NCBI GenBank assembly: GCA_964036045.1
Contig: OZ038378.1
Coordinates: 40,177,228-40,241,227 of the forward strand
Length of the DNA: 64,000 nt
Origin: Eutreptiella sp. 'Long Island Sound 2002'
Lineage: Eukaryota; Euglenozoa; Euglenophyceae; Eutreptiales; Eutreptiaceae
Direction: 5' to 3'
Below, piece after piece: positions 12,430-34,345 of the stretch (position 1 is its first letter; each line of letters starts with the position of its first letter). The position numbers and the translations under genes are program-made. The notes under the pieces were generated by a model. The model worked only from the letters and a program-made list of their open reading frames with translations. It was not told where the DNA came from and did not search any database.

Positions 12430-12446
12430 TTTAAACTTTTTTGAGC
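12430..12446. repeat. target-site duplication, left copy
   Basis: TTTAAACTTTTTTGAGC occurs here and again at 34329-34345, immediately outside the (TACC)n tail. These 17 identical bases define the insertion limits of the element between them. The A/T-rich target is typical of APE-type endonuclease nicking. Confidence 0.9.
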
Positions 12447-13110
12447 CAGGAGTGGCGAGGACCGCCCACCGCCACCGGCATCGAAACCCAGCCAGGAGTG
12501 GCGGGGAGTAGAACACAGGAACCTCCGCCAGGAGTGGCGAGGGACCAACCACAGCCACAACCCCACCAACACACCACCGCCGCACACCACACACCACACA
12601 CCACACACCACGCGCCACGCACCACCGCCGCCAGCAGGCCCCAGCCAGGAGTGGCGGGGAACCGCACACCACCACAGGCAGCGAAACCCAGCCAGGAGTG
12701 GCGGGGAGTAGCACACAGGAACCTCCGCCAGGAGTGGCGAGGGACCACACACACCACACACCAGCCACAACCCCACCACACACCACCGCCGCCCGGAGAC
12801 CTCAGCCAGGAGTGGCGAGGACCGCCCACCACCACCGACAGCGAAACCCAACCAGGAGTGGCGGGGAGTAGCACACGGGAACCTCTGCCAGGAGTGGCGA
12901 GGGACCAACCGCACCACACACCAGCCACAACCCCACCAACACACCGCCACCGCTCACCACACACCACACACCACACACCACACACCACACGCCACTGCCG
13001 GCGGCGGAACCCCAGCGGGGAGTGGCGGGGAGCCGCACAACACCACAGGCAGCGAAACCCAGCCAGGAGTGGCGGGGAGTAGCACACAGGAACCTCCGCC
13101 AGGAGTGGCG
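12447..13110. repeat. CAGGAGTGGCG hairpin repeat array at element 5' end
   Basis: CAGGAGTGGCG starts at 12447, 12493, 12529, 12646, 12693, 12729, 12807, 12853, 12889, 13064 and 13100, usually as GCCAGGAGTGGC. The four-base arms GCCA/TGGC enclose a GGAG loop, giving a mini-hairpin. Copies come in triplets with about 46 and 36 bp internal spacing, separated by (CACACCA)n filler, so there is a higher-order repeat of about 160-210 bp. A variant triplet member lies near 13013. Isolated copies recur at 14328, 15293 and 16262. Such monomer arrays at LINE 5' ends often act as promoters; that role here is inference. Confidence 0.9.
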
Positions 13111-14325
13111 AGGGACCAACCACACCACACACCCGCCACAACCCCACCAACACACCACCACCGCACACCACACACCACAAACCACGCACCACACACCAAC
13201 ACAGACACCACGCGCGCACGCACCGCGCCACAAACACACACACCGGCGGCGAACCGCGACCAGGGGAGGGCGCGACACGCCCGCAAGCAACACAGCCAGG
13301 AACAGCGAACACCCCCCCCCCCACCACCACCACCCCACCCCGGAGAGACGGGACACCAACCACCGCAAACCGCACAGCGAAAAGGGGGGCGGGAGGAAAA
13401 GGGCCCACGGGGGGCGCCGGCGAGGGACCCAACCTCAGGGGTTTGGGGGCCCCCCCGGTGACCGTATCGGCCCCACCTGAGCACACGCAATAAGGTGGGA
13501 TACGCCCGGGACCGTTGGTCAGCGGCCCGCGGTGGCACCGGCCTGGGGGGGTGACCAATGGGCCTGACCAAGAGCACTCCCCGAGGCACGTACTGCGGTT
13601 CGGGCCCAGCGAGGGGCTGCGGGTAGGGCACACCGTCCATCGGGGCAGGCAAGAGACGCGCCTGTCCCGCGAGGACTCTCCAGCGACCCACAGTGTACCC
13701 GACCCCGGTGTGGGGAACGGCTGGAGTACCTGGCTACGGAACAGGTCCATGGACGGCATCCGTACAACAGAGTTACACCCTGACGGGGAGTGCAAGCACC
13801 GGCTCCCCCACGGGGAAACACCAGGGGAAGGGACCCGAGCCGGCGACAAGGACCCCCCCCCACACACCACAGCCGGGAAGGCCCGGGCACGACACCGCCC
13901 CAAGCGACACGGAAAAGAGACAGAAGGAGGAGGGCACGCAAAAGGGACAGCAAGGGGACGCACCACCAACAGACCCCAGCCAAGGGGGGCGGGGAACCAC
14001 ACAGCCGAGACAGGGGGGGGGGCACGACACACAGGGCCGCCAAACAGGGCCGCCAAACCACGCCCGCAAAGGCGAGGGCAGGCGCCCCAACGCACCACCA
14101 ACACACCGCACACACGCCCGAGCGTGCACACAACACACACCCCCACAACCGCCACCGACACGAGCCCCACAAGCGCACACCACACACCAAAGCGCAGGCG
14201 CCGCCCGCACCACACACGCAACACACACAAACCCAAACAACAGGAAACCAGCAACCCGCCAGGGGGTAGGGGGTAGGGCCGCCAGAAGCCGCTAGGACGC
14301 AAAGGAGGACCCACCAAGCCCGCAG
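13111..14325 (+). other. 5' region of giant LINE, no supported ORF
   Basis: Low-complexity CACACCA DNA gives way at about 13400-13860 to a more base-balanced G-rich segment, for example CCTGGGGGGGTGACCAATGG, then back to C/A-rich sequence. I see no conserved protein. The balanced segment may be untranslated leader or regulatory sequence. Confidence 0.4.
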
Positions 14326-17300
14326 CCAGGAGTGGCGAACGGCCACACCCAGTAACACCCGAACGGCCACGCCCAACACCAGGACCGGGCACTACGACAC
14401 CCACACCAGCACCGCCACCAACGCCCAAACCGGACGCCACGACACCCTCACCAGCGGACACACCCGAAACCAGCGGAAGCACCATCGGCAACACCAGCGA
14501 CCCCAGCACCCACCAACAACAAACAAACACAAAAAGCCACCCAACACTGCCCAACGACCGCACCCAGCCGATCCGGTCCCCCACCGGCTCGCACCCAGAA
14601 CCACCGCCACCGACATCCACGCCATCGGAAACACCAACACCACCAAAAATCAAGCCAGCACAACACCCTCACCAACACCGTCACCGCCGGCACCAACGCC
14701 TACGACACCTACGCATGCCACCGCCGGTTCCAGCACCTACATCACCCAAGCCAACGGCATCAAGCACACCATTGCCGGCAACACCCCACCATCAGCGTCG
14801 CCACCAGCAACCTCTGCCACCGGAGGACACCGAAACCACCACAGCCGGTGAGCCAACAAACCACCAAGCCCCGGCCAGGGGAAGCGAGGGCACGCGCCCG
14901 GAACCACCATGCAATCCCCGGCGACACCCACACCACCGGCGCCGCCAACACCACCCTCACCCACGACACCACCCGGAGCAACACTTACGCCACCTACACC
15001 AACAGCAGCACCAGCAGACCACACCACCTACTGCACACCCCCCCAGACAGAGCCACAGAAGCCGACCACCACCAGCATCGGCAGCGTCCGAGACGCCGAG
15101 AACCATAGCGACACCCACAACGACCTCACCACCGGCATCACCGACACCGACACCGGCAGTACGGCCTCAGCACCGACAAACCAGAGCGTCAACGGCAATC
15201 GCCACGGCAACACCGCCCGGTACGACACCATCGGCATCAACAACACCAAGGGAGCCAACACACAGGCCAGCGACACCCATGGGTACCTCCACCAGGAGTG
15301 GCGAGGTCCGACCCCCGCCGTCAGAACACCACCAACCACCAGGGCAACACCCGCAGCGCCCACATCGGCCGCAGCTCCACCGGCGGCGCCCTCGCCAACA
15401 CCGTCACCAACACCGCGACGGCCAGCCACGAGTGGCACACCCGGAACCGCTGACCACCCAAACACAGGCCGCGCCCAGCACCAACACCAACAAGGCCCAC
15501 GCCAACAGACCACCACAACACACGCCAACCACCAAGTAACACATAAGGCACCCTCGCCCTCGGCAACACCAACGCCACCAACACCCACGGCACTATCCAC
15601 ACCACCACCAACCCCACCAACGACGGGCCGAGGTGCCGTCACCTACAACGCCCCCAACACCACCACCACGGCCCCGCCACCTAGGGCAACCCCACCAACG
15701 GCGTCACCAAGGACGCCAGCACGGCTGGCGAACGAACGCCACCGAGCCCTCAGCCAGGAGAGGCGAACGCCCACACCCAGCAACACCCGAACGGCCACGC
15801 CCAGACCCAGGGCCAGGAACTGCGACACCCGCACCTGCACCGCCGCCAACACCCAAACCGAACACCACAACACCCTCACCAACGGGGACGCCCGGAACCA
15901 ACAACGGACCAACACAAGAAACCACCCAGCGGCCAAGTTACACCCAAGGCGTTCCAACCGCGCCACCCACCGGCCCGCACCCAGAACCACCACCAGCACC
16001 AGCAACAGCCACTGACAAACCACACACAGACCCACACCAACCACCAGCAGCATCAACAACATGAGCGACACCGTGAACCATAGCAGCGCCCGCAACGACC
16101 TCACCACCGGCACCACCAACGGCGCCACCGGCAGTGCGACCTCACCGACAGCAACCCGGAGCATCCCCCATCCCGCATCCCGGTGAGACACCATCGGCAG
16201 CAAGGACACCGAGGGGGCCAAGGCCAACCCACCAGCCAACGACGCACGTGGGAACCTCCGCCAGGAGTGGCGAGGTCCCCCCTCCGCCGTCAGAACACCG
16301 CCAGGGCAGCACTTACAACACCCTACAACGCCAACACACACAGCTCCCCCGGCAGCACCCCCAACAACGCCAACACCGGCACCACCGACAGCGGCAACAC
16401 GGCGACACCACCACCCAACCGCAGCAAGGTCACCCTAAACCGCAACCGCAGCAACACCTGTCACTACGGACCCGCGGACAGCCGACACCACCAGGACCAC
16501 AGACTGGCCAAACACCAGCCACGAATGGCACGCCCGGAACCACCGAACACCAGCACACAGGCCACCGGACCACCGCGAGACACACCACCGCCCCTAACAC
16601 CCCTAACACCACCACCACGACCCCGGCACAGAGTAACACCTAGGGCGCCCCCATCGACGACACCACCCAGGACGCCACCACGGCTGGCGAACAAACGCCA
16701 CCAGCGCCGCCCACCAGGCCCCCAACCAAGGGTAGAAACAACAACGCCACACGCCATCACACCCACCGCATCGAAATCACCCGGAGCAACGTCAACATCA
16801 ACCAGGGGTCCCCACCACCCACCCAAGCAGCACAAAACACCACAGCAACACCACCACACCCTCACCACCAGCGACACCACCGCCAGCACCCTCCGCCAGG
16901 AATGGCGAGGAGAAGGCCCAACAGCGCGGACCCACCCAACGTCCCCGGCACCCTCACCATCGGACCGTCACCACCGGCGCCGACCCCCAACACACCACCG
17001 TCACCAACGCCACCGACCCCGGACGCAAAAATCACACAGCCCGCACACACGGCACCAGCCAGAGCAACGCCGACACCACTCCCGGCCAGCTCACACGAAC
17101 ACCACCGGAAGCACCACCGTCGACCGAACGCCACGGCGACCCCAGGGTACGAGTCCCCCCCACCATCTGCACGGCCAGCGACACCGTCACCGGCACCAAC
17201 CGGAACACCGACAACGACAGCCTCACCAACAACCGACACCCCCCTACCGCTGCCACCCACCAGTCACGCCACCCGCCGTCAAAGCCACCCACCAATGCCG

Positions 17301-18050
17301 CACCCCGAACCACACTTACACCCGAAACCGGCACCAGCACGCCCGGCCGAACCGTCAATGGCACCACCGCCATGGCACCGCCTACGCTCACCACCGCCAC
17401 CACCACCCCACGCGAGACCAGGAACCCCCGCCGTCGCCAACGGCCTCAACGAGCACCGACACCACCAACACCACCACCGCCGGACAGGGACTACCCACAA
17501 ACCAGGAACATCTCCACCACCAACAACCAATACACCACCCGCGGCACCCCACCATCGCCGACACCACCACGGCACCCATCACACCTCCACCACCGGAGGC
17601 GACGTGGGCCACACCACCCGTCAACTACAGCACCCTCGCCACCACCGCCACATCCGGCCCACAAACGTTACCGCCGACAACACCACATACGCCCATACAT
17701 CACCCACGCCATGCTCACCGACCATCACCTCGTCATCAGAGACACCAACACCACCGGCGACGACGACAGCGACAACAGCTGACCCACCAGCTAACCACCA
17801 TCAACCATAGCCCAACACCAGCTTCATCTACTCTAACGCCCATACCACCCTCGCCAACAGCGCCGCCACCGACACAATCATCCACTCCGGCGCCCACACC
17901 ACCCTCACCACCAACATCACCAACACCACCACCCCCAAGGTCAAGGCCCGCGGGAAACAGAACGGCAGAGCGAGCACGCCACCACCCGCACGCGTCGCCC
18001 ACCCTATCGTACACCGCTCCGCAACACGCCCCCCCCCGCTTCCCCTGACA
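14326..18050 (+). pseudogene. frame-broken Thr/Asn-rich repeat protein region
   Basis: Degenerate modules of about 0.95-1.4 kb recur: 14326 resembles 15751, 15080-15320 resembles 16060-16290, and 15640-15770 resembles 16590-16720. Short stretches in all three frames translate to similar hydroxyl- and Asn-rich peptides, such as NTLTNTVTAGTNAYDTY, NDLTTGTTNGATGSATS and HSGAHTTLTTNITN. The correct frame switches repeatedly. I infer a former repeat protein, beta-helix or adhesin-like in style, damaged by indels or by homopolymer errors in the assembly. Open frames such as 16183-18048 are long only because stops are rare in this C/A-rich DNA. Confidence 0.5.
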
Positions 18051-18283
18051 GGGCGTGCGCTCCAGCCCACTGCTGGGAAGACGACTTCGACATCCTCCCG
18101 GCCATCCGACACCTACTGGCAGCCACGGCCCCGCGCCCACAAGCCCACCAGCAACCCACGGAACCGCAAGAGCCCGACCACCCCATGCCACCGCGCTCCA
18201 TATCCCCCGCGACCACCGCAGACCGGAACGCGGAACACCAGCGAGAGGAGCCCGACCCCGGCCGCGCCGCCACACCCCCACCG

Positions 18284-18295
18284 CCCCCCCCCCCC
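18284..18295 (+). other. 12-C run at a reading-frame switch in ORF1
   Basis: Upstream of this run the protein-like frame contains CWEDDFDILPAIRHLLAA (from 18071) and enters the C run. Downstream the protein-like frame is the one reading KDIYATLASTLAP into the first ATG of ORF1. The two differ by one nucleotide. The run may be a sequencing or mutational slip, or a site of programmed slippage. Confidence 0.6.
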
Positions 18296-18335
18296 AAAGG
18301 ACATCTACGCCACGCTGGCCAGCACCCTAGCCCCC

Positions 18336-21300
18336 ATGGACGCCGAGCAGTGCTACCAGTCCGTCCAACGAGACCTCCCTGAGGACCACGCGACCCTCCA
18401 GGGGTGGAAGCAGGAGAAAAGGTACGACAACGAGTGGGGCACAGAGGAAGACCTTCTCTGGGACGACACCTGGAAAGGCACCGCGGACACCTTCCTGGAG
18501 GCAGCAGCCGAAACCTACCCCCGCCCGCCCGGGGACACCAGACACGGCCTCCACGCCCTCCTAGCGTTCCACAGCTGGAAACACCGCCACACCGTCACCC
18601 TCCACCCCCTCGACCACAATCCGCACCGATGGACACCTGAAGACGACGCCACAGCCACCATCACCGTACAGCAAAGCCCCGAGAACCCGGAGGAATACCA
18701 CATCACCTGGGACGATCCGGCACCCCACCCCCCCGCCTCCCCCACCCTCCCAGATGTCTTCGCCGCCATCAGTGCAGAGCTCCAGGAGGCCAAAGCCCCC
18801 CAGCAACTGGACGAAGACATGCCCCAGGCACCATCACCATCAACCACACAAGACCAACCCCGCACAGAGCCCCTCACCCACCCCATCACCACAATGGAGC
18901 TCCCCCCACAACACCGCACCACCCCAGACCGAAACGGGTTTCGAGACCTGCCGCGGGAATGGGCGGTCCACAACGGCACACTCCGATGGGACGAAATCAG
19001 ACCGGGCCTCCAGGCCATCCGCCTCCACTCAGTCGCAGAGCCCACCACCACCTGGGCACTACCGACGGACCGCCACCACCTCCTCCTCACCGTCCAAGGC
19101 GATGCCACGATCACACCCACGGAAGGAGACCCCGTAACAGCAGCCGCCGCCCACGCCGTCCACATACCCCCGCAAGCATCGTCGGCACCTATGACGGTGC
19201 ATCCAGGCCCCACCCCTTGGCAGGCCATCGTCGTCACCTACCCCGCCCCCAATGACCACACACATACCTGGCAGCAACGATGGGAGGACATCCGAGGGGA
19301 CCTCCTCCAAGAACACCTAGGGCTCACACGCACCCACCACACCCTACAACCGATACGAGGAGTAGGCCAAGCGTCACACGGCATACACGCCCCGGGAGTA
19401 TGGGCCTACGCCACACCCATAAACCCACAAGCAGCGGAGGACATCAAGACCGCCCTATCCATCCAGCAAGCCCAGACCCAAACCCCGCACCGCAACACCC
19501 AACGAGGCTACACAATTTGGTGGGCGTACCAAGACCATGACACCCTCACCCCCCAACCGGGGGCCCCCCCTCTAGACACCAACACCACCGCCCTCCTCCA
19601 AGCCGCAACAGCGGCAGCCACACAGGTAGGGGCCCCGGAAACCTGGGGCCCACAATACCTGGTCGAAACCAAAGTGGCGCCCCACGCGAAGGGCCAAGAC
19701 AAGCCCCCAACACCGAAGCCGCTCCACCCCCCGCTCAAGCTAGACCCGACGGAGCACACCCCCCAGGATGAATGGGCGACCCACTACATCATCCCCCACA
19801 CCACCACCCGCAAGAACGACGCCGCCAAGATCACCGTCACCCGCAACCTCCCCCACACCACACAGGTGTATGAGCTGACGGCCCCCAACGTCCTCGTCAC
19901 CCGTCGCCGACACGACGATCGATACACCATACAGGCGGAAGGGGCCGCCGCGACCACCCTGTACACATGGGCAACACGGGGGGACCTCCCACACCCCACC
20001 CTCCACCACGCCCCCTCCTGGCCCACCCCCTTCCACACAGCGGACCGCCCCAACAAGAAGCCCAACCACACGGGTGTGCACACCCACGCCCAGGAGGCCC
20101 AGCACCGACACGAAGCGAGGCGCAAGGCCCGCACCCTCCACGACGACCACACCATCCCCCGCATCGGCGCCCCCCCCGCCAGGGTATCAGATACCACCCA
20201 CAACCGCACGATCACAGGCATCACCACAGACTGCCTGAACCCAGCGGCGTCGCGGGCAGACGCCGTATGGATCAGCGAAGGGCGCTCCCACACACGGGCG
20301 GTGGCGCGCCTCCACAACATCCAACCCCACAAACTCCAGCGCGCCGTTGGACCCTTCGCCGTACACGTCACCCCGTACGGCATCGACCACCCCCGGTGTG
20401 AGCACCATGACCCGCCCTGCTCCACCCCATGCACCTCGCCCCTCCGCCAACCACTGCCGGCCCCCACCATCACGGGCAACATGTACCTGGGCACCGTACC
20501 GGGAGACCCGGGCATATACATCCTGCCCAACAGGTCCAGGGAACACGCCATCCCCCTCCACTGTGTGGAATCCCTCGCCCTGGGACCACCCCCACCAAAA
20601 CACCAACACCAACACATCCCGGGGGACAAACGGACACAGGCCCCAGACGGGGGAAAAAAGGCCCACCAACGCGCCCTGGCCCACATCACCCTCCACCCCG
20701 CAGCCCACCTACCAAAGGACTTCGGCACGGAGCGCCACATCGTCCTGGAGGGCCAAGCCCACCACATCATCACCGCCGCCCTGTACACCCTCGCCGCCCA
20801 CGAACGCCACTGGGACCCCACAACCATCCCAGCAATGCCCCCACCGCCCCAAGGCCCCAACGATCCCGTCACCCCCTTCCACATCGATCAACTCCTAAGC
20901 CGCAAGGCCCCCCCACACCTCCACCCCTCCAGGATACCACTAGCCATTGCATCGTGGGACACCCTGGACACCCCCCCCCAACAACCCGCCATCCACATCC
21001 TCAAAGCGGACACCCAATGGTGGGTCCTCCACTGGGCACACGGAGTCCTCATGGCGGCCCAGGCCTATACCCCGGAAATGGACCCGGAAGACCCCCCACG
21101 GGGCCAACAGCGACTCCTCCAAGCCACCACCCTCACAGGCCGCGAAGGCGCCCCCTGGGAAGCCCTCCACACAGCACTCTACTGGGCTCAAGGCTCCCCC
21201 AACGGCCCGGACACACCGGAACCCACAGAGGCCTGGGTCAGGCAGGCCAAGGCCATGAGGAACTACCACCTACACCACCCCTTCGACGACAGCCCCGCCG

Positions 21301-21677
21301 CACTGCCATGGCCAACAGATCCCCCGGAGACCGTACGCAAGCTCGCCGACATCGTACGCAGCCACGCGAAAGCGAAAATGCAAACACCGGCAGAACCCCC
21401 ACTGAGGGATCCAGACCAGCAAGCAACGCACCCCTTCTTCCAACCCCATGCCCCCCCAGCCCCGCCACCTCCAGTCCCACCCAAGCGAACGAGACGACAA
21501 AAGGGCGCACCCGCCCCCAGCCAAGCCGGAAAAGCAGCAACCTCCCGACCCCCCGCATCCCACCCCACCCACCCGACGAACCCAGACCAAGCATCCTCGT
21601 CATCCTCCCTCCCACCACTACCACCGCCCCACCCGGACCAGGCATCCTCATCATCCTCCCTCCCGCCACCAGCATAG
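18336..21677 (+). CDS. giant LINE ORF1, large protein of unknown function
   Basis: The frame has 1113 codons from ATG to TAG and stays protein-like throughout. It is Pro/His-rich but has many Trp-containing blocks. Around residues 215-310 a hydrophobic alternating segment (HHLLLTVQGDATITP) suggests a beta-barrel, cupin-like fold. Around residue 690 a cluster of His and Cys (CEHHDPPCSTPC) could bind zinc. The tail is low-complexity with two near-identical DQASSSSSLPP phrases. ORF1 proteins of other LINEs bind RNA and chaperone it; that role here is inference, and the protein is far larger than usual. The coding frame probably begins further upstream, at or before 18071, across a C run. Low-complexity antisense frames were ignored. 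Confidence 0.7.
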   Translation: MDAEQCYQSVQRDLPEDHATLQGWKQEKRYDNEWGTEEDLLWDDTWKGTADTFLEAAAETYPRPPGDTRHGLHALLAFHSWKHRHTVTLHPLDHNPHRWTPEDDATATITVQQSPENPEEYHITWDDPAPHPPASPTLPDVFAAISAELQEAKAPQQLDEDMPQAPSPSTTQDQPRTEPLTHPITTMELPPQHRTTPDRNGFRDLPREWAVHNGTLRWDEIRPGLQAIRLHSVAEPTTTWALPTDRHHLLLTVQGDATITPTEGDPVTAAAAHAVHIPPQASSAPMTVHPGPTPWQAIVVTYPAPNDHTHTWQQRWEDIRGDLLQEHLGLTRTHHTLQPIRGVGQASHGIHAPGVWAYATPINPQAAEDIKTALSIQQAQTQTPHRNTQRGYTIWWAYQDHDTLTPQPGAPPLDTNTTALLQAATAAATQVGAPETWGPQYLVETKVAPHAKGQDKPPTPKPLHPPLKLDPTEHTPQDEWATHYIIPHTTTRKNDAAKITVTRNLPHTTQVYELTAPNVLVTRRRHDDRYTIQAEGAAATTLYTWATRGDLPHPTLHHAPSWPTPFHTADRPNKKPNHTGVHTHAQEAQHRHEARRKARTLHDDHTIPRIGAPPARVSDTTHNRTITGITTDCLNPAASRADAVWISEGRSHTRAVARLHNIQPHKLQRAVGPFAVHVTPYGIDHPRCEHHDPPCSTPCTSPLRQPLPAPTITGNMYLGTVPGDPGIYILPNRSREHAIPLHCVESLALGPPPPKHQHQHIPGDKRTQAPDGGKKAHQRALAHITLHPAAHLPKDFGTERHIVLEGQAHHIITAALYTLAAHERHWDPTTIPAMPPPPQGPNDPVTPFHIDQLLSRKAPPHLHPSRIPLAIASWDTLDTPPQQPAIHILKADTQWWVLHWAHGVLMAAQAYTPEMDPEDPPRGQQRLLQATTLTGREGAPWEALHTALYWAQGSPNGPDTPEPTEAWVRQAKAMRNYHLHHPFDDSPAALPWPTDPPETVRKLADIVRSHAKAKMQTPAEPPLRDPDQQATHPFFQPHAPPAPPPPVPPKRTRRQKGAPAPSQAGKAATSRPPASHPTHPTNPDQASSSSSLPPLPPPHPDQASSSSSLPPPA

Positions 21678-25200: not shown

Positions 25201-27422
25201 TTCTACAGCTTCCCGAATGGCCACAATACCGCCTCTTCCACCAGTACCTCACACAGACGGCACGAACAGCGGGACACACTCTACCGAGCAGCAAAGACAT
25301 GCGCACAGCCTACCAAGAATTCACAAGGCAACACCCGCGACCCATCCCAGAGACACCGCCCCACGCACCCACCGGATCGAAACACGAACCCGTCCCCCCA
25401 GTAACGGGCCCAGTCCCACCACTAACCCTACTACTGGCCCCGAATGAAGCCAAACCCACGCAGACCACCGTCATCCACCACGGGGCAAAATGGCGCATAC
25501 CGAAACACCACATGACCGCCCGAGACCTACCAAAGGTCCCCCAAGATTCCCAGAGCATGCCACGCACATGTTGGGCCTGTGACCCCGAGGCACCAACCGC
25601 ACCATGGCCCGTGCTACACCTCATAGCACGCCACCACACCCACCCCACGACCCACCTACCACCACAGGCCTACGCATGGATAGCCCCATGGTTCCACCGC
25701 ACCGACACTAACCCCACGGTAGCATGGAACCCCGACCACGCGCCCAAATGGCTCTTCACCACTACACCCACATGCCCCCGCCCCGACCCGGCAGGGGTCG
25801 CCATCCGTTACAGCATGTACGAGCCAGGCAGAACGGGCAAACACGAGCACCCCTACTATCCACTCCACCACTCCTGCCACACACCGGAGCACCGAACACA
25901 AACCCTCACATGCCACGACCTAAACCCCGACACAGCCTACATCCTCCACTACATCTACTCCTACCTCACACAAGGACAGCCGGAGCAGGGACTCATAGCC
26001 CTGTCCCCCCAAGCAAAGCACATCATCTCCAAAGGAATAGGGGTGTACGCCACCCCCATCCTACAGCCCACAACCCCAGTAGCCCACCTCGCCACGGGCC
26101 TTGCCATATACGCCTACCTGCCCATGAACCCATGCCGCCTCCCACAACCATCACCGGCGGACCGGCTCTTCTTCACCGACGCCTCAGGCGAATCCGCCCT
26201 CACGCCCATCAGCGGGGGGGCCACCCTGCAACTAACCCACACCGGGGGACACTACCACATGGACCACCACACGGGCCACACCACCTATGGGGCCTCTTCC
26301 CACGGGGAGCTAGGGGCCATGGCCGACGCCATCACCGAGGTCGCGGCCCACCTACCCGCCCACTCCCCGCACATCGTCCGGGTCTGGTTCGTGGTAGACG
26401 CCACTGTCGACACGCACCTGCTCCTCCGCATAGCAAGGCAACCACTTCACAAAGCAACCGCGACGAGCCTCGGCACCCAGGCACTGCTACTCTGGAAAGC
26501 CCTACGCAGCCTTCCCCCCTACGTCCAACTCCACATCGTGAAACAAGAGTCCCACAGGCACCAATACGGAAATGGTAAGGTCGACAACCAGGCAGTACAC
26601 CAGCGCACAACACACCTACCAGCCCTCCAGATCCCTGACCTCGGCCGCAACCACACACACCTCCAACACGTGCCCCCGGTACCCGAGCCCCATCAGACCC
26701 CGGACTGGGTACCAGAGGACGCCCCCTATTCCTCCCACGACAGAGCGTACCACTACCCCAACCCCGTCCAACATCTCGCCCGCGTGCTCGGCGACGCAGA
26801 CAGCCGGGCGCACATCCAGGAGCTCCAGGACAGACTGCAAGTCCCCCTCTACCACTCAGCGCTCCGCCCAGCAAACGTCCCAGCCCACCTCCAGAAACGA
26901 CGCATCCAGCTGCTCAGGGAGCAACTGCCTTTCCTCACCAGGGTCGCCAGATGGCTCGCCCGCAAGCACATCCACGTCCCCGACGAACACACCCGTTGCC
27001 CATGCGACCACACCACCCCGGAGGACTGGGAACACTTCAAGAAATGCCCCCTCCATACAGACAGGGACACCCTAGTGGGCTGGTCCCCGGCGGAAACCCT
27101 GCGGCAACACGAAGGATGGCCAGCCCACAGCCACGCACACCAGGCCACCGAACACCTCTTCCGGGACCCCCTGATCAAAGAAGCCACCATGAGAGGGGCA
27201 GTGACACAGGCCCTGCACCGACACCTCACCAAACACACGGAAAGCCCCATGGAGGCAGCAGCACACCTCCAGCTAGAAGCGGTCCGCAGAGCAGCGGCCC
27301 AAATGGTACACCGCAAACACCTCCTGCTAACACACGCGGAACAACTCACCGACCCCACCGCCAGGGAACACATGCAGCGTCTCATCCATTACCATGCCGT
27401 GCATGACCCAGACGTCCACTAA
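22209..27422 (+). CDS. giant LINE ORF2: APE endonuclease, RT, RNase H
   Basis: A 1737-codon intact frame, acting in nuclear target-primed reverse transcription. Residues about 1-205 form an APE-type endonuclease: E16 (TFQEQG), D118/N120 in GDTNAAP, D174 in SRIDV and H200 in GHS. RT spans about 410-760: KKGDWANPDNWRPI, D579 in SLDVKGAF, GVPQGGAEGP, then D677/D678 in FADDTN. A C2H2-type finger is at C1121, C1124, H1137, H1142. RNase H follows with D1324 (FFTDASGE), E1367, D1397 and D1459. A CPC...H...C zinc knuckle lies at about 1597-1613. The frame is open back to 22074, and endonuclease-like sequence (VNLLDLN) precedes this ATG, so the true start is probably upstream. The same frame as ORF1, separated only by stops at 21675 and 22071. 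Confidence 0.95.
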   Translation: MAQGPGWVPHLLTFQEQGLQRDDPPETTPMYTPDQKAYKCYWHKGTPLYAQTGIHVHLVHHLSVPGRLGVYEVVGDGWQLNVINTHVPFGEATEPFLQALAEAYRQMAMLAPTVIIGDTNAAPTPADRGGQATPQDQAVRDTIEMLGLVDLTASLEGQPSHFPHQTDAAPSRIDVCYGDPTTIIRAEARYGPLPLGPTGHSPLHIRLTIPNLPPSPPEDADQGLPPPLKMPPLHDKHAWSQYHRAIDRARRIQPDPTDLLTAMRTAAVACGFQQHPHTDDDQPPTALGDMLHDLWHAKQQLATLLHTDTPQTRRQIHHCRTQIAQIRADLQRWHIHRQQRIAQEHERYAQHELPYKAIRHLNDAMTDTGHRTITTVRQEDGSLTNDPATVLQATQDSFLRQHTPTQDTLDPDTQAKIDRLPRVFNHAQRRHLEKRPFTIHEVRKAIHSLRQHKTPGYDGLPAEAYYHLPAHLLRVLAHRLWDIVTGRTPLPPDWANVVRPLYKKGDWANPDNWRPIVCAVTEVKIVWTILLRRIRPHLDPHIPASLWGAITGRSPHEAIFLQDTIADMDPVDLIIASLDVKGAFPNTPWLLLEAVWKRLGLPFYNFTSDYIRTRKYTVRTGAGLTPFLEPGSGVPQGGAEGPFLYLLVTLPLALAIEQDYPAYAPYPLLSPLVGFADDTNLTVAHTPHDPHAPDPGPTVTQQANDLLDVTVSYLSHNNLIVHPTKSVAMIKGSATPPTLGPQGPPMQVVTTTTHLGVVQAANPEDATLPPKLQSHLAHLPRYASPTTKALSLSHQSLAYYLTGVLNASIGFQALHLTHPATALQPATRAVTKAWAAHGGWPTSIPTRAIRAAWPHYGDAIGDEVKAAYTRHTALLLHRMTHNHSPEVREVTAIRLQAAQRARNTCPRWVLHQTGMPTNMNTRLWNHLQLLLPSPHHAILTNHTCPEKGPLAVLCGDLHHHRKGTIHTIDLVGASITVVYVTLAQMRVLHHSGAHHTPFLQLPEWPQYRLFHQYLTQTARTAGHTLPSSKDMRTAYQEFTRQHPRPIPETPPHAPTGSKHEPVPPVTGPVPPLTLLLAPNEAKPTQTTVIHHGAKWRIPKHHMTARDLPKVPQDSQSMPRTCWACDPEAPTAPWPVLHLIARHHTHPTTHLPPQAYAWIAPWFHRTDTNPTVAWNPDHAPKWLFTTTPTCPRPDPAGVAIRYSMYEPGRTGKHEHPYYPLHHSCHTPEHRTQTLTCHDLNPDTAYILHYIYSYLTQGQPEQGLIALSPQAKHIISKGIGVYATPILQPTTPVAHLATGLAIYAYLPMNPCRLPQPSPADRLFFTDASGESALTPISGGATLQLTHTGGHYHMDHHTGHTTYGASSHGELGAMADAITEVAAHLPAHSPHIVRVWFVVDATVDTHLLLRIARQPLHKATATSLGTQALLLWKALRSLPPYVQLHIVKQESHRHQYGNGKVDNQAVHQRTTHLPALQIPDLGRNHTHLQHVPPVPEPHQTPDWVPEDAPYSSHDRAYHYPNPVQHLARVLGDADSRAHIQELQDRLQVPLYHSALRPANVPAHLQKRRIQLLREQLPFLTRVARWLARKHIHVPDEHTRCPCDHTTPEDWEHFKKCPLHTDRDTLVGWSPAETLRQHEGWPAHSHAHQATEHLFRDPLIKEATMRGAVTQALHRHLTKHTESPMEAAAHLQLEAVRRAAAQMVHRKHLLLTHAEQLTDPTAREHMQRLIHYHAVHDPDVH

Positions 27423-28548
27423 CCCGCTCCGCGCCCCGCACGCGCCCCCCGTCTCCATCCACAGGTCTCCAAGGCACCACCACAGCGCCCCGAGACCCGT
27501 CTCGCACCCAAGAAGCCACCCGGCACCGCCCAGTCCGGCCGAACCCAGCCAGGGCCAACCATCCATCGACGTAGACGCGCAAGACCCCGGCAGCCCATCC
27601 AGCCCACCCCCCCCGGACCCGGGACACCCCCCCCTCACACCGGCCACCATCCGCGACCCCGACCTCCTCCGAGCGACCCTCCAAGACAGGGCCCCGAACA
27701 CCCCCCTGGGCTGGTACCGCCTACAAGAGGACTGGACCAAGCTCACCGTCAAAGCCCTCCGGGACCTGACCACCCCAGGCAGCGGCCTCCACGAGACCAT
27801 AGTAGACCTCGTGCTCTGGCGAGCCCGCAAACACACCCGGGGCCAGCCCATCTGGATCCCCCCCATCGAGTGGGGCCAGGCCCTGACGCACGACACCGGC
27901 AGCAACGTCACGCGTCGAGGGACCGTACGCCTACGGCGGGCCCAAGCGGAGACGGACCACCCAGCGGACCCGAACCACCCGGAGCAGTGGGAACAGGCCA
28001 CCGCGCCCAACCGCGACACCGCCCTCCGCGCCGCCGGCCTCCGCACCCCCGACGACGACCTCCCCCCCCCACCTACAGACAGTGACCACCCCCCGCCGGA
28101 GGTCTGGGTTACAGTCCTCGAGCGCGGCCACTACTACGTGATAGCCGCTATGGCTACGTCCCACGGCCCGCAATGGATCATCCAGGGGACAGACACCATG
28201 TTCGCCCCGAAGACCGCCCCACCAGGGGCAGTGGGGGACCCCACCACCCAGCACAGGATCCTCAGGGGTCTCCTCCAGCCAGGGGACACGCCCCCAGCCC
28301 GCGCCCTGGCCCAAATCACCTCAGGGAAGGCGGGCTACCACCTGGGATTGTCCATGCTCTGCCTAACCCACTGGATCCAGCGCCACTGGCCACCCACGGG
28401 GACCGTGCCCTGGGTTTGGGCCATCCCCACCGCCCACACACAAGTCGAAGCAGGCCCGGACACACGACCAAACCCCCCCCCTAGGCCGCAACAGTCCCTC
28501 ACCTGCGGGTACCACGCCATCCACAGGGTCCTCTTAGCCCAAAGCTAG
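27394..28548 (+). CDS. C48/Ulp1-like cysteine protease ORF of giant LINE
   Basis: The 384-codon frame starts at an ATG overlapping the ORF2 end by 29 bases in a +1 frame. The first 100 residues are Pro-rich with a PSIDVDAQD phrase. The remainder has the order H246 (GHYYVIAAM), D267 (IIQGTDTMF), Q366/Q367 and C371 (LTCGYHAI), matching the His-Asp-Gln-Cys order of Ulp1/SENP-type C48 peptidases, which cut SUMO-like modifiers. The Asp-to-Cys distance is longer than in yeast Ulp1. A diverged homologue in the element at 38-40 kb keeps HY, GTDS and a Cys at the same places. An OTU cysteine protease is known in Dualen/RandI elements; a C48 type here would be distinct. It could process the polyprotein or act on host modifiers. 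Confidence 0.7.
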   Translation: MPCMTQTSTNPLRAPHAPPVSIHRSPRHHHSAPRPVSHPRSHPAPPSPAEPSQGQPSIDVDAQDPGSPSSPPPPDPGHPPLTPATIRDPDLLRATLQDRAPNTPLGWYRLQEDWTKLTVKALRDLTTPGSGLHETIVDLVLWRARKHTRGQPIWIPPIEWGQALTHDTGSNVTRRGTVRLRRAQAETDHPADPNHPEQWEQATAPNRDTALRAAGLRTPDDDLPPPPTDSDHPPPEVWVTVLERGHYYVIAAMATSHGPQWIIQGTDTMFAPKTAPPGAVGDPTTQHRILRGLLQPGDTPPARALAQITSGKAGYHLGLSMLCLTHWIQRHWPPTGTVPWVWAIPTAHTQVEAGPDTRPNPPPRPQQSLTCGYHAIHRVLLAQS

Positions 28549-30227
28549 CATGCCCCCTTCCCACCACTGACCAAGAGGTCCACCAGATACGAACGCTCGT
28601 CTGCGAAATCCTTGCCGCGGCAGCAGAAGACGGCAAGCTTCTCCTCCAAACCGCCCGGCCTACAACTGCCCACGCAAGCGCGCAGCAAGCGGACACATAC
28701 ACCGGCACAGCACAACCCCCCGCACAATCCCCGCCCATGCCTCCCCCCTCTCGCTGCTCAACCGGAGACCCACACACGCCCACTATCGCGCGCGCCCCCG
28801 GGCCCCGCGACACGGGCCTCCCCCACCCGCCCGAACACCAGCACACGCCCGCCACACACCCACCCACCGGCCACCCTTCACCGCCCCCCACACTCGACAA
28901 CCCACACACACCCGCCAAGGGGAGCCCCACGCCCCGCGGCACGCCCACCCCACCCAGTGGCCCGCCCACGCCCCCCACACACACCCCAGAGGACCCAGGC
29001 CCACCCCCCCCGGCCCCTGAATGCAGCCCACGCGAACTGTTCCCCCCCGCTGACACCAACCCACACGACCTCGCACATTGCAGGACCCGGGCCCAGCCGA
29101 GCCCAGAAAGAGAAGGCCGCAGCCCGGCGCCTCCCTCCCCCGCCGCAGCCGACCAGATCGGCCCGCCGGGCCGCCAGGTCACGACCGGGCCCCCCCAGCC
29201 GCCCGCCCCCAACCTACAACCCGGGGACATGCCCTCCATCCTCCCCGCCGTGGCCGCAGCAGAAGCCGCCGCCCGCAAGCCCGCCCGCATCACAGCCCAA
29301 CCCGCGTCCACCACCTCCTCCTCGTCCTCAGCCTCGTCCACCTCCTCCACCTCATCCTCCGACCCCCCCCTCCCCGCCAAACTCATCCTCCAGGCCACGG
29401 CAAAAGCCAAAGCCGCGGCCGCACGCACCAACCCCCCAACCCCCACACAGGCGACTCAGGCACCCCGGCAACCCACCGGGACGACCCCCGACCCGGCATC
29501 GACGCCCTCACACCTCCGGACAGAGGTACTCCTCAACCTGGAACCGGACCCCAACCCCAAACCCGACCCCAAACCCAAACCGGACCCCAACCCCAAACCC
29601 AACCCCAAACCCAAGCCGGCACCCACGCGACCACACACAACACCGCATACGCAACGACACAAAACCACCCGATACCACCCCCGCCCAGGCCCTCGCCAAA
29701 GCCAGGACCCCCCACCCACCACGACCCGCGCCCCCCTCCCGCCGGCACCCACCACCACCGCGGAGACGGCCACACAGCACGACCCCCTCCAAACCCTCGT
29801 CAAAATCCCCGTCACCAAGCGCCCCGTCATCCATCCCCCACAAACCACCACCACCGCCGGTCAAACCGACCCAGGGACGTGGGACCCCTCAACCATCGTC
29901 ACCGTCAAGCCCGGCCCCCAACCCTTCCTCCATGCCCACCACATAGTGCAGCCCCGGGGGCTGCCCACGATGCCCAACCCCCCACCCCCACAAGGGGGAC
30001 CGGAAAACCCACAAGGACCCCATGGGCCATACCCGCAACACCAACCCCACCACTACACACACCACCACCACCAGCGGCCCCACCACCACCACTACCAACA
30101 CCACCCCCACCACTACCACTGCCCACCGCCCTACCCCACCGGGCCACAACCCCCCGTACACCAACAGCACCAGCGGACGGGATGGCAGCCGCCGAACGCC
30201 CCGCCCGCATACCCACCCCCCCCGTAA
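28549..30227 (+). CDS. giant LINE ORF4, low-complexity Pro/Ser frame
   Basis: The frame opens at the protease stop (TAGCATG) and the first in-frame ATG is only at 28737. Before that ATG there is a clear amphipathic helix (DQEVHQIRTLVCEILAAAAE), so translation probably starts upstream by reinitiation or a non-ATG route. Later come a Ser run (STTSSSSSASSTSSTSSS), a Lys/Ala segment and (DPNPKP)n repeats at about 29545-29620, then a His-rich HHHHYQHHPHHYH stretch. The truncated copy at 40172-41626 has a matching order of Ser run then KPKPKP. A single TAA at 30225 separates it from the SR-rich frame that follows in the same register. Confidence 0.55.
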
Positions 30228-31484
30228 AAGCCACCGCCCCCGTACCAGCCGTACCCCCGCGGCCACCATCCGATGGCCGAGGGGGCCCCATGGACGACGG
30301 GGGATCTCCCCCCCCAACCAGCACCGCGTGACGCCCCGTACCCCCCCGGCCACCATCCGATGGCCGAAGGGGCCCCAAGGACGACGGGGGACCTCCCCCC
30401 CCAAGCGGCGCCGCGCGAGCCCCCCCAGAGGCCGCCGACGCTTCCGGACTGGCCCGACTCCAGCGACGAGGGCCGGTCCCGCAAGCGGCGGCGCTCCCGC
30501 TCCCCCCCCGCACGGCACACTCGCCCACGGCGCCCACACTCCCACCGCGCCTCAACCACCCACTCGCGCCGCTCCCGCTCCCCCAGGTACCACCACGACC
30601 CCCAGGGACCCCGCTCCCGTCGCTCCCGCTCCCCCGGGCACCACCACGAGCGCCACCGCCGCCCCATGTCCCCCTCCCCCTCCCCCCACCAGCCACCCAG
30701 CCCCCGCCACCACCACTCCCGCTCCCCCCGACGCAGCCAGGCACGCCGCCGCCGCCCCACGTCCACCTCCCCCTCCCCCCACACGCCCCGCCGGGCTCCC
30801 CGTTCCCCCCGCCACCCGTACCCATCCACCACCCCCAGCCCCCGCCACCACCACTCCCGCTCCCCCGGACGCCACCGAGCGCGCCACCGCCGCCCCATGT
30901 CCACCTCCCCCTCCCGCTCCCCCCTCCGCCCGTACCCGTCCTCCACCCCCAGCCCCCGCCGTCGCCGCTCCCGCTCCCCCAGGCACCGCCACCCCCGCCA
31001 CCACCGCAGGTCCACGTCTTCCCCCCGCCGCTCCAGGACCCCAGGCACGGACCCCTCCCCCCCCCGGGCCCCCGCCTACCTCGCCTGGTGGTCTCCCTCC
31101 GCTCTGCAGGAGCTCCGCCGCTGGGTGAAGTGGGCCGGAGGAGCGGGAAGGCACGAAGGGGTGCACATGGTGCATACCTTCGAGGAGGTGCGCACCCGCA
31201 CCCCCGCAAACCCCAACGAGACCGCCCCGGAGGCCATCATGCCGCAAGCGGCATGGGAGGCCCTCCTCCGCGATGCGGTCCAGGGCCTCCGCCCCCCCTA
31301 CAGCCCCCAAGCCCTCCGCCGGTGGCTCCAGGCCACCCACCCCCAAGCCTGGGCCACCGGCGCCCCCTCCCCACCCCGCCCCTCCCACCACCACCACACC
31401 AGGAAGGGGCAGGACAAGGGCAAGGGAAGGGCAGGGGACACCAAGGACCACACAGGCAAGAGGGCACGGAAGGGCCCCAAGTGA
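30228..31484 (+). CDS. giant LINE SR-rich basic protein with conserved C-terminus
   Basis: This frame continues ORF4 past a TAA; its first ATG is at 30273 (403 codons). A duplicated 84-bp unit encodes YP.GHHPMAEGAP.TTGDLPP twice. An acidic WPDSSDEG then leads into a long RS/SR and RH-rich domain (RKRRRSRSP and many RSRSP repeats) like those of nuclear splicing factors. The C-terminus is structured: WWSPSALQELRRWVKWA, then IMPQAAWEALLRDAV, then a Lys/Gly-rich basic tail. The same WW...LRRW...MPQAAWEA block is present in the copy ending at 41626, showing selection on it. I infer an RNA-binding, nuclear-targeted structural protein. In the truncated element the two parts form one uninterrupted frame. 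Confidence 0.65.
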   Translation, partial: KPPPPYQPYPRGHHPMAEGAPWTTGDLPPQPAPRDAPYPPGHHPMAEGAPRTTGDLPPQAAPREPPQRPPTLPDWPDSSDEGRSRKRRRSRSPPARHTRPRRPHSHRASTTHSRRSRSPRYHHDPQGPRSRRSRSPGHHHERHRRPMSPSPSPHQPPSPRHHHSRSPRRSQARRRRPTSTSPSPHTPRRAPRSPRHPYPSTTPSPRHHHSRSPGRHRARHRRPMSTSPSRSPLRPYPSSTPSPRRRRSRSPRHRHPRHHRRSTSSPRRSRTPGTDPSPPRAPAYLAWWSPSALQELRRWVKWAGGAGRHEGVHMVHTFEEVRTRTPANPNETAPEAIMPQAAWEALLRDAVQGLRPPYSPQALRRWLQATHPQAWATGAPSPPRPSHHHHTRKGQDKGKGRAGDTKDHTGKRARKGPK

Positions 31485-31980
31485 GGGCAGGCACACGCAG
31501 GGACAGGGCGCCGGAAGCGACACCACATGGGGTCAGGACACCACCCAAGAACCAGGAAGGAGCGGGAACGGGGACCAAGACACGGAGGAAAAGGGCACCA
31601 CGACAGGTGCCACGACCCACACCGACGGGGAGACCAGCGCCGCCCCACCCCCACCACACACCCCAACACACACCACCGAAGCAAACATCGGACGCCATGC
31701 GGATCACACCAGCGCACGCCCACCGGCCACCGGAAACCACACGGAGAACGGAGGGCACACATACACGGGGAGAACGGACCACACCCACAGAGGAGGCCGC
31801 AGGGAACACCGCCGCCAGCCTACGACCCCGACCACCACGAAGGCCAACTCACAGGCACCGGAAGAGGACGAAAGCACGGCCGCGGCACCCACGACTACGG
31901 ACCCACAACCCCAGAGGACACGAGACCAAGGCACAGGCCCCCAGGGAGGGCAACCCCACGGACCGTCACGCGACCACACC
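31485..31980 (+). other. C/A-rich stretch after SR ORF, coding status unclear
   Basis: An overlapping frame open from 31273 to 32325 passes through here with a hydrophilic Thr/Gly/His-rich translation. It has no motif and no counterpart in the truncated element, which instead carries a different ORF at the same position. I leave it as undetermined. Confidence 0.3.
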
Positions 31981-32600
31981 ATGGGCTATAAGGGCCGGGC
32001 TGCGCTACCGTCGCGGTTTGACGCAGAGTATTGCTACGGGGGCTTGATCTCGGCTGGTCTCACGTCCGTGAGGGCGTCCGTCACCAACCTGTTGCGTCCA
32101 GTGGAGGAATGGCACTGCGGCGGCACACCGATCCCGTCCATGATGAATATCGAGCATCGCAAGGGGAAGCGAAACGCTGTGATCGATCGCGAAGGCTTTG
32201 GTGCTGCTGGACGGTGCCCCCCTTCAAGGCCATCTCCGAGCGCCGTGAAGACTGGAAGTACCAAGAATACTACCGATGCCCCGGACCCCAGCAGTCCAGC
32301 ACCAGAGATATGGACATCCCCCTGACCCTACAGTGTGAGCTCATCCCTGCCGGCGGCACCGACCCGGACCCTGCCAGCGCAGCCGAGCTGCAGTGAAAGC
32401 CATTCGCCACTCAAACAACGTTCGGAAGCCACCTCCACCGTCCGACTCCTGATGTCTGTTTGTCTGCCTTGAAGAAGGAACGCCTTTCCTACACCCCGAG
32501 TACACCTGCCTGTCTGCGAGGCCCGGTGAAGATTGAGTCCATGGGTGAGAGTCAGTGTGCACGCCCCAAGGACACCGTGATCATTCAGCAGAATTTCCCG
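31981..32600 (+). other. base-balanced patch inside the LINE 3' region
   Basis: The extreme C/A bias stops here. Three short stretches look like ordinary protein in different frames: RFDAEYCYGGLISAGLTSVR (frame of 31982), PSMMNIEHRKGKRNAVIDRE (same frame) and FKAISERREDWKYQEYY (frame of 32031). No donor or acceptor pair joins them cleanly. I infer a foreign or host gene fragment carried in the 3' region, possibly with a frameshift near 32210. The protein is not recognised. Confidence 0.4.
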
Positions 32601-34311
32601 AAGACCTAACCGACCCACACAGGCCAGGCTGACCTCCACTGACCCACCGCGGCACCACGCGAGACCACGGCACACCGCACCACAGCGCGCCACAGAGCAA
32701 CGCACCACAGCACGACGCGACGCGACGCGGCACAGAGCGGCACAACACGAAACAACTGACCCTAACCTGAGGGACTAACCGAAGCCAGCCACCGCACACC
32801 CGGGAAGGCGCCGCGCCACCACGCCACACACCGGCACCACAGGCCACACACGGGACCACAGCGCGCCAGGCGACAACGGTGACGGACCACCCAGAAGATT
32901 ACAGCCGGCACCGCGGAGAGGTAAGGACACGAGCAACCCCAGCCCCCTAACCCAAAACCACAAGCAGCCGCCTGGCGCAGCCGCCCAGCCGGCAGAGCCA
33001 GGACCTAACCCAGCAAGAAGGGGCGCCGAGCCCACCGTGTACGGAGCCCACCCGACCCATGGGGCCGGAACATGGCCACACAGAACGCAACTGAAAACAG
33101 CAGCCCGGAAGACAACACTGAATACAGGCCAGTGCGTGCGCCAGCCCAGGGAAGGCAGAGGGAGGAACAGGCAAGCCCCCCCCCCAAAAAAGAAAAAAAA
33201 AGGAGGGGGGAAGGGGAAAAGGCACGAAAACAGCCCACAGCCGCCCAACCACCCGCCAACACCACCACAGGCGGCCAGGCCCCCCCCCAGAAAAAAAAAA
33301 AAAAAAGAAAAAAAAAAAAAGGGGGGGACCCCCGCAGAGGCACAGGCGAACCACCCACCCACAACCGGCAACACCAAGCCAGTAACAGCAGACCACGGGG
33401 GAAAGGGACAGAAAAAAAAAAAAAAAAAAGAGAGCCACCAGCCCAGCCCGAAAGAAAGGGGATGGAGGGACAGGGACCACAAAGCCCAGAAAAAAAAAAA
33501 AAAGAAAAGAAAAAACCAAAGCAAAAAAAAAAAAAAAACACACCCCGACAACCCAGCCAAGACGGACTGGGCACAGGCGAGACCCGGGCCCAGCACACAC
33601 GCCCACACCGCGCGCCGGAACCGGAAACGGCGGGGAGCAAGCGGGGCGCCCACGAAACCACACACGTCCCAAAAGCAGGCCGAAACCGAAGCCCAACCAC
33701 GAACACCACAAATAGCCGACACTAGAGGGACAACACCACAAATCGAGCCCAAAAACACCCACCCTAAACCCCAGCCAGGACTGACGGGGTTAACAAAACC
33801 CGCACCCAACCGCCAACCGGACCCAAACACAAACACCACACAACAGTAGGAAACCCAGTGCCCACAGCCCGGGCACTGAGGCAGCCCGTGCCATGCAGGT
33901 GACCCGGCCAAACGAGATCCGGAGCCCGGGGGTAAGGCTGCATCCTAAGGCCTGCGCTGCTTTGAGACTCGAGGCGGAGCGTGCGACACCCAAGCGCCTC
34001 GGAACCCTAGTACCAGGAACGTGCATGCACGCCTTGGGAACGGGATACGCCAGGAAGTCCGGTGAACCCCTAGGGTTCCGCCCGAAGGAGGGGACGTGCG
34101 CAAGCACGGGGGCACACCCTCCCGGCGAGACAAGCATGTCACGCTGGCGGCGATCAGCCCTCCCGGCGTAGCCCGGGGCCGCTTTGTTGGGGGCCAACAG
34201 TCAGGTCTAGCGGGAAGTAAGCCGCCTCCCCTCTTCACGCGCGAAGCCTCTTCCTGTTCGTCACAGGGGCGACGCCAGGGGGAACCATGGGGCGCCTCTC
34301 CACGACCGAGT
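32601..34311 (+). other. 3' untranslated region of giant LINE
   Basis: C/A-rich DNA with a cluster of long poly-A tracts at about 33183-33540, some interrupted by G or C. Near the end lies a conserved segment (CCGCCCGAAGGAGGGG at about 34079, then ACACCCTCCC at about 34114). It has a counterpart in the truncated element (CCGCCCAAAGGAGGGGG at about 43360, then ACACCCTCCC). Shared 3' sequence is expected if the RT recognises its template there. Confidence 0.6.
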
Positions 34312-34328
34312 GCACCTACCTACCTACC
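34312..34328 (+). repeat. (TACC)n terminal tail of giant LINE
   Basis: ACCTACCTACCTACC directly precedes the right target-site duplication. Simple-repeat tails replace poly-A in several LINE clades. Confidence 0.85.
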
Positions 34329-34345
34329 TTTAAACTTTTTTGAGC
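34329..34345. repeat. target-site duplication, right copy
   Basis: Identical to the 17 bases at 12430-12446. The sequence that follows (TCATTTTGGCATACC) is host DNA. Confidence 0.9.

Follow-up and report, generated by a model that had tools for sequence, protein, structure and literature searches.

Does the large repeat at this locus of Eutreptiella sp. 'Long Island Sound 2002' represent a single, giant long interspersed nuclear element (LINE), or several unrelated repeats that happen to lie side by side? The question is raised by a stretch of 64,000 nucleotides of contig OZ038378.1 (assembly GCA_964036045.1, positions 40,177,228 to 40,241,227 of the forward strand), hereafter the window, in which a first-pass annotation, made from the sequence without database searches, had described a 21.9-kb retrotransposon without long terminal repeats (LTRs). 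LINEs usually measure roughly 3-8 kb. Our analysis indicates that the feature is very probably a 5′-truncated copy of an autonomous non-LTR retrotransposon of the apurinic-type endonuclease (APE) class, whose complete form is approximately 25 kb long.

The first-pass annotation had set the bounds of the window copy by identical 17-bp flanks and a (TACC)n tail, and both were recovered. The target-site duplication TTTAAACTTTTTTGAGC is identical at the two flanks and has only these two plus-strand matches in the window, even when three mismatches are allowed, while the 21,882-bp copy ends with the letters TACCTACCTACC, its (TACC)n tail reaching up to 34328. No long direct repeat was found between the two ends of the 12447-34328 element, which is therefore without LTRs. 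T makes up 8.5% of the plus strand of the element versus 31% at 5000-12400 and 27% at 45100-64000, and this strand bias is uninterrupted along the whole unit. The 5′ part contains an array of tandem monomers (12446..13211) that might serve as promoter and that resembles the tandem 5′ monomers known from mouse L1. A CCAGGAGTGG motif occurs 14 times in the 5′ part of the element and once outside of it, at 34360-34369, 15 bp past the 3′ duplication.

Copies were sought in the whole assembly (2.28 Gb on 2205 contigs, of which the contig of the window accounts for 201 Mb). In each search the best 40 candidates were scored, and a candidate is not the same as a copy. With the 5′ module of the window copy (12447-12947) as query, the best 40 of 2035 candidates, window copy included, were 99-100% identical over 501 bp. 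Twenty-two of the other 39 scored places were fetched and checked for a 3′ end, and 18 of them carried one with a TACC tail near the expected spacing (7 of 10 within ±1.5 kb and 11 of 12 within about ±0.4 kb), these ends being 96.2-99.6% identical. A query with the 3′ end (33829-34328) gave 100% identity for all of the best 40 of 1371 candidates, again including the window copy. That 18 of 22 copies share the TACC end and that several different 5′ starts occur corresponds to the LINE pattern of a constant 3′ end and variable 5′ truncation. The search for copies sharing both ends that had been proposed in the first-pass annotation was thus successful, and the separate halves that it had named as the contrary outcome did not appear, other copies ending at different 5′ points with a constant 3′ end.

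The window copy is 5′-truncated, and the complete form starts about 2.9 kb further upstream at a fixed base. Upstream of six copies, for which 30 kb each were inspected, homology extends beyond the start of the window copy, first through a variable number of CCAGGAGTGG monomers, then through a non-monomeric leader up to a common first base (GTCGCGCGATCGCAGCAG). Three of the six start at this base, two about 40 bp inside it and one more than 1 kb inside. Of 12 further copies, six share this first base, two start inside it (by 2 bp and by 33 bp), and four are headless in the fetched piece, giving nine of the 18 copies with fetched upstream sequence that start there. Four complete copies measured 24,893, 24,583, 25,029 and 24,923 bp, and C2:158710562, which starts slightly inside the common base, 25,273 bp. 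The 21.9-kb bounds are hence correct for the window copy and not for the family, and a size several times that of ordinary LINEs is borne out by the complete copies (24.6-25.0 kb). In the 5′ leader of complete copies (L040:7121-8900) we observed repeated GGTATG, AAGTATGTT and CTATAGGGG motifs that resemble splice sites, despite the sequence being retrotransposed. A spliced-leader pattern was also sought and led nowhere. Rfam searches gave one weak microRNA match each in the window and in the 5′ leader and no ribozyme, and no tRNA was found in the window.

Head and tail could also be linked independently of the 5′ module. The best 40 of 2374 candidates for the first 500 bp of the complete form were 98-100% identical, the locus of the query included, with 34 of them beginning at base 1 and six at bases 2-6, and for 11 of these 40 heads one of the 40 scored 5′-module places follows 2.7-3.1 kb downstream. 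For five of the 40 scored heads a tail from the set of 40 follows on the same strand at a distance of no more than 60 kb, where 0.02 would be expected, and there were no pairs in the wrong order or strand. The five head-to-tail spans are 23.4, 24.8, 26.2, 27.6 and 42.4 kb. The widest pair (G000:C1:140648407-140690853), in right order, perhaps contains a large later insertion or represents two copies. At G000:C14:49212989-49213855 two 5′ heads lie side by side in opposite orientation, possibly owing to a 5′ inversion.

Most of the insertions that were tested carry their own target-site duplication. Eleven of the 22 fetched copies and the window copy entered the test. Of the other eleven, C22:30112924 was left out for its AT microsatellite flanks, C3:80967042 for a 3′ flank of 28 nt, C3:128503177 because its 5′ end had not been fetched, four more because their 5′ end fell outside the fetched piece, and four that had no 3′ end. 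An exact duplication of 12-17 bp beside the tail was present in nine of the 12 insertions, window included; in a control with 132 swapped flank pairs the longest match was 12 bp and two pairs reached 11 bp or more. That a segmental duplication or an assembly artefact multiplied one chance arrangement would agree with the high identity of the compared copy ends (96-100%), but is hardly credible, given that the flanks differ from copy to copy, that these nine insertions carry duplications of their own, and that 5′ truncation points and monomer numbers vary. A chimeric assembly was rejected as unlikely, since near-identical copies with different flanks are present on many contigs. Complete copies with a short duplication show an additional 14-29 nt of copy-specific sequence before the first base (25, 29, 14, 29, 29 and 26 nt), and some of these junction extras (L040, L043, L051, L057, L065, L069) have short internal repeats, like templated filler. 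Extras of about 12 nt (by eye) and 30 nt were seen in C18:36727321 and, between microsatellite flanks, in C22:30112924. They are absent in the truncated window copy and in C5:4089881, and, contrary to a simple rule, amount to 99 nt in the truncated C2:158710562.

The window contains a second member of the group, element 2, which the first-pass annotation had taken as proof that additional genes belong to the family. A TACC-tailed and apparently truncated relative with ORF3-like sequence is indeed present at 38299-43603, its support for a fourth open reading frame (ORF) amounting to 17 residues. It is enclosed by long repeats with bounds coinciding with the element ends, which appear to represent a kilobase-sized target-site duplication. 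The three tested insertions without a short duplication are C18:36727321, which splits an element-2-like 3′ untranslated region into halves that join up as in the intact sequence at 43501-43540, C10:55474560, where the first 1315 bp of the 3′ flank are repeated upstream with 99.1% identity, and C14:46000321, which has a 91-bp identical repeat. A repeat of at least 211 bp was moreover found at C4:143932241. Long duplications (0.2-1.5 kb in three insertions, namely element 2, C4:143932241 and C10:55474560) are thus recurrent in this element group. Those around element 2 and C10:55474560 might instead be older tandem duplications, as the flanks of element 2 lie within tandem arrays, which duplicate easily, and the last 409 bp before the 5′ end of C10:55474560 are not covered by the fetched 3′ flank. 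We regard this as unlikely, though within reason, because the repeat starts at the 3′ end of the element in both insertions, and for element 2 the other end of the repeat coincides with the element as well, while C4:143932241 has the same arrangement over at least 211 bp.

Since every stop codon starts with T and T makes up 8.5% of the element, long frames arise by chance. We estimated chance frames by first-order simulation with composition matched in 500-base blocks (300 runs). The length of the 1782-codon frame at 22074-27422 was not reached in any of the 300 simulations, neither for the whole element nor for its own region, and that of the 1288-codon frame at 17811-21677 was reached in two of 300 for the whole element and in none for its own region. 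The longest frames at 13-17.8 kb (p 0.44) and at 27.3-32.3 kb (p 0.42), in turn, are average for simulated DNA, and the reading that all long frames are genes was rejected. Of the "at least four" long frames that had been counted in addition to the largest one, ORF1 and ORF3 hold, ORF1 in a form interrupted in this copy, and the others are within chance; together with ORF2 three genes are supported in the element. ORF3 was accepted because of its 184 homologous proteins (the best 120 of 184 are listed) and not because of its length. Among the 147 retrieved proteins, six extend over two ORFs: one, from a second subfamily of about 50% identity, joins ORF1 and ORF2, and five join ORF2 and ORF3. 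These may be products of gene models, yet they show that the ORFs are adjacent elsewhere too.

The 1737-codon frame had been described as carrying APE, reverse transcriptase (RT) and RNase H. Length and RT were confirmed, with RVT_1 found in seven of seven ORF2 members by Pfam. A profile of seven ORF2 relatives searched against the PDB gave five matches (best E 7e-14) that cover the RT and weakly the endonuclease; four carry the name LINE-1 ORF2 protein, and the fifth, 8c8j, is entered as RNA-directed DNA polymerase, although we take it to be LINE-1 ORF2p as well. For the endonuclease the evidence comes from relatives. Exo_endo_phos was detected in two of seven members (best E 9.1e-7), to which the window protein is 47-56% identical across the endonuclease part, while the window's own ORF2 protein had no Exo_endo_phos match in Pfam and the alignment of the profile to the LINE-1 endonuclease is weak (domain E 0.35). 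Taken together, these relatives support an apurinic-type endonuclease N-terminal to the RT. Downstream of the RT, four aligned sequences share a D-E-D-H-D pattern as named for RNase H in the accessible text of PMC4640811, and no RNase H profile matched ORF2 in Pfam, NCBIfam or PDB. Ten proteins were retrieved with ORF2, among them P0001 (99% identical, representing 758 sequences) and a second subfamily of about 50% identity with P0005 (469 sequences), P0007 (425) and P0006 (158). ORF1 retrieved 17 proteins, of which P0014 represents 509. In the family the TGA at 22071-22073 is the stop of ORF1, which in the window copy is preceded by a premature, in-frame stop at 21675-21677; a frameshift, which was also considered, is ruled out by the alignment.

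ORF1 and ORF2 lie in the same frame with only TGA-CGG between them, and this junction is identical in four of four other copies. The hairpin predicted after the ORF1 stop (over 80 nt −36.9 kcal/mol and z −2.9, equalled by none of 200 shuffles; over 60 nt z −2.6, equalled by one of 200) is predicted in four other copies too. In type II readthrough signals, as described in the available part of PMC11166343, CGG comes directly after the UGA and a stem-loop often lies 6-12 nt further on; here, the upper stem starts 8 nt after the stop. The database protein P0009 is similar to the window frame from residue 3 onwards, upstream of the Met at residue 46 (22209), so that ORF2 probably needs residues ahead of its first AUG, with the limitation that P0009 may be a gene model. 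A putative ORF1-ORF2 fusion would be the simplest source of such residues, and readthrough of the ORF1 UGA-CGG appears likely. Alternatively, ORF2 might be translated without readthrough, starting by reinitiation at the AUG at 22209 or at a non-AUG codon. The Met at 22209 is the start of P0001, and the database entries P0005 and P0007 start at a comparable, later Met, aligning from ORF2 residue 56 without similarity upstream. Set against the upstream similarity of P0009 and the shared frame with conserved UGA-CGG and hairpin, we consider such a start without readthrough quite possible but somewhat doubtful.

In ORF3, His is conserved in 25 of 28 rows, Asp in 24 of 28, and Cys, in a conserved Q-x4-C-G context, in 13 of the 23 rows with a letter there. 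These residues suggest that ORF3 is a candidate Ulp1-like (C48) cysteine protease. No protease profile was matched in PDB or NCBIfam up to E 10, nor in Pfam, where the ORF3 members gave weak Phage_cement hits only (6 of 28, best E 0.034).

Table 1. Positions of the giant LINE copy, its parts and the neighbouring element 2 in the window.
Feature	Position	Strand	Remarks
5′ copy of 17-bp target-site duplication, TTTAAACTTTTTTGAGC	12430..12446	+	exact match to 34329..34345
Giant LINE copy, 5′-truncated	12447..34328	+	21,882 bp
Tandem monomers with CCAGGAGTGGCG motif	12446..13211	+	monomer count varies among copies
T-poor 5′ region	13300..17800	+	5.2% T; longest frame within chance expectation (composition-matched simulation)
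ORF1	18336..22073	+	1245 codons + stop; P0012-P0014 (1248-1262 aa) align in one frame to 18336-22070
ORF1 stop TGA-CGG and hairpin, candidate readthrough signal	22071..22120	+	paired 22075-22120
ORF2: APE endonuclease (from relatives), RT, RNase-H-like stretch	22074..27422 (stop-to-stop)	+	first Met 22209, giving 1737 aa
RT domain RVT_1	23718..24398	+	frame residues 549-775; E 5.2e-15
RNase-H-like stretch, D-E-D-H-D pattern	26133..26618	+	residue pattern, 4 aligned sequences
ORF3	27394..28548	+	overlaps end of ORF2; 384 aa here vs 557 aa in relative P0028
Short peptide stretch common to element 2 (41315-41365)	31239..31289	+	12/17 identical; sole support for a fourth ORF
(TACC)n 3′ tail	34313..34328	+	
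3′ copy of 17-bp target-site duplication	34329..34345	+	
Upstream copy of long duplication flanking element 2	36815..38298	+	98.3% over 1484 bp
Element 2, diverged, TACC-tailed, apparently 5′-truncated	38299..43603	+	ORF3-like sequence
Downstream copy of long duplication flanking element 2	43602..45082	+	first 2 bp overlap tail

Several observations weigh against a single autonomous giant LINE as described here. The 3′ end was not seen in the fetched stretch of four of the 22 copies (three within ±1.5 kb and one within about ±0.4 kb), and that of C3:80967042 lies about 1.5 kb beyond the expected spacing. Head-to-tail spans are spread over 23.4-27.6 kb with an additional one of 42.4 kb, a spread that is likely due to indels or later insertions. 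Three of the 12 tested insertions lack a short duplication, and ORF1 is interrupted in the window copy as well as in L077, one of the four copies sampled. The RNase H (ORF2) and protease (ORF3) assignments consist of residue patterns, and the lower stem of the hairpin begins 1 nt after the ORF1 stop, closer than the 6-12 nt of type II signals. The copies without a 3′ end at the expected place, as well as the 5′ region at 12.4-17.8 kb with no supported gene, might point to two or more nested or fused elements, for instance a LINE of normal size with unrelated repeats, that mimic a large one. However, 18 of the 22 copies, spread over many contigs, have both ends at similar spacing, most of those tested having their own duplications, the independent head and tail searches pair up, the strand bias is continuous across the unit, and other retrieved proteins, one of them about 50% identical, have ORF1 next to ORF2 or ORF2 next to ORF3. 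Linked ends, own duplications and head-tail pairing largely refute nested or fused elements, which we consider very improbable.

As a single giant LINE, the element might function as follows. The 5′ leader and the monomer array would probably drive synthesis of an RNA of about 25 kb, with a predicted transcript start at GTCGCGCGATCG. ORF1 would be translated, and occasional readthrough at UGA-CGG and hairpin would yield an ORF1-ORF2 fusion, unless ORF2 starts otherwise. The endonuclease would nick the target and the RT would copy the RNA from its TACC end, i.e. by target-primed reverse transcription, as the structure of the copies suggests. The second nick would usually fall 12-17 bp away and sometimes hundreds of bp to more than 1 kb. 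Incomplete copying would leave 5′-truncated copies such as that of the window, and the copy-specific junction extras of about 12-30 nt are perhaps added when the RT reaches the RNA end. ORF3, as a candidate cysteine protease, may act on the long ORF1-ORF2 product, which is the weakest step. A more far-reaching proposal is that of a distinct giant-LINE lineage with an ORF1-ORF2 polyprotein made by UGA readthrough and matured by its own protease, as in retroviruses and RNA viruses, and with a second-strand break more than 1 kb away that would create the kilobase-sized duplications. As a whole, this proposal appears rather improbable.

Other repeats were noticed in the window. A purine-rich repeat at about 560-3112, with (CTTA)n at its end, is from another tailed family; judged by eye, its 3′ part is similar to the target of C14:46000321, and the search for a target duplication gave only a 9-base match. 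Frames with RVT_1 and RT_RNaseH matches at 54776-58690 indicate an LTR-type retrotransposon. A dispersed repeat of about 375 bp is present in three copies (10515-10890, 48305-48682 and 63622-64000) with 91-94% identity, and a near-perfect inverted repeat at 6973-7534 is 93% identical over 570 columns to its own reverse complement. Outside the assembly, the patterns used brought up no relatives in viral contigs or in a collection of prokaryote genomes, which is in line with a eukaryotic element. One further contig-collection search gave two pattern matches.

A LINE of about 25 kb in many near-identical copies challenges the idea that LINEs must stay small. According to the common view, LINE proteins copy the RNA that encodes them in a single uninterrupted event, and the success of an element of this length, with many copies 98-100% identical, points to an unusually processive RT or to protection of a very long RNA. 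Beside size, the probable coupling of ORFs across UGA and the apparent kilobase-sized target duplications are the notable features, and the family thereby offers a natural test both of ORF1-ORF2 coupling by stop-codon readthrough and of the distance between the two target cuts. Speculatively, the strong T depletion of the sense strand may help the long transcript to avoid premature ends. The family may also form a noticeable share of the 2.28-Gb genome.

Among known giant elements, the Terminons are Penelope-like retroelements (PLEs) of rotifer telomeres of up to 40 kb, according to the accessible text of PMC6431247. They are likewise giant multi-ORF RT elements with frequent 5′ truncation. 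As described there, however, Terminons are endonuclease-deficient, telomeric PLEs with hammerhead ribozyme motifs, whereas the element reported here has an APE, target-site duplications, a dispersed distribution and no Rfam ribozyme match. A Terminon or Penelope-like element was rejected in view of the RT, which aligns with LINE-1, and the APE in relatives. The same part of this review on giant transposons names giant LTR elements, Terminons and Polintons and no giant LINE, and none was found in our search of the literature on large or unusual LINEs, Repbase and preprints being outside that search.

Some LINEs of the Utopia/NeSL group carry an N-terminal Ulp1-like protease (PMC4640811, accessible text), and in the possible possession of such a cysteine protease they are similar to the giant element. 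As far as the source describes them, they differ in having a restriction-like endonuclease and the protease within the RT protein, in contrast to the APE found here and to the candidate protease, which has a downstream ORF of its own. No restriction-like endonuclease was found in Pfam scans, so that the element does not belong to Utopia/NeSL. LINE clades with RNase H comprise, in the accessible part of PMC4640811, the I group, plant L1, Proto1 and Dualen/RandI. The RNase-H-like stretch, here downstream of the RT, recalls these clades at the level of its residue pattern. These clades differ from the giant element in size and ORF layout.

By its RT, endonuclease, fixed 3′ end, variable 5′ truncation and duplications, the sequence classifies the giant element as a LINE. 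It is closest in plan to APE-type LINEs, with which it shares an APE (as judged from relatives) followed by RT, target duplications, a simple 3′ tail, 5′ truncation and an upstream ORF1, and LINE-1 is the only match of ORF2 among solved structures. Compared to these LINEs it is set apart by its length of approximately 25 kb, an ORF1 of about 1250 aa in the frame of ORF2 across a conserved UGA, the additional ORF3, extreme T depletion, the TACC tail and what appear to be occasional kilobase-sized duplications.

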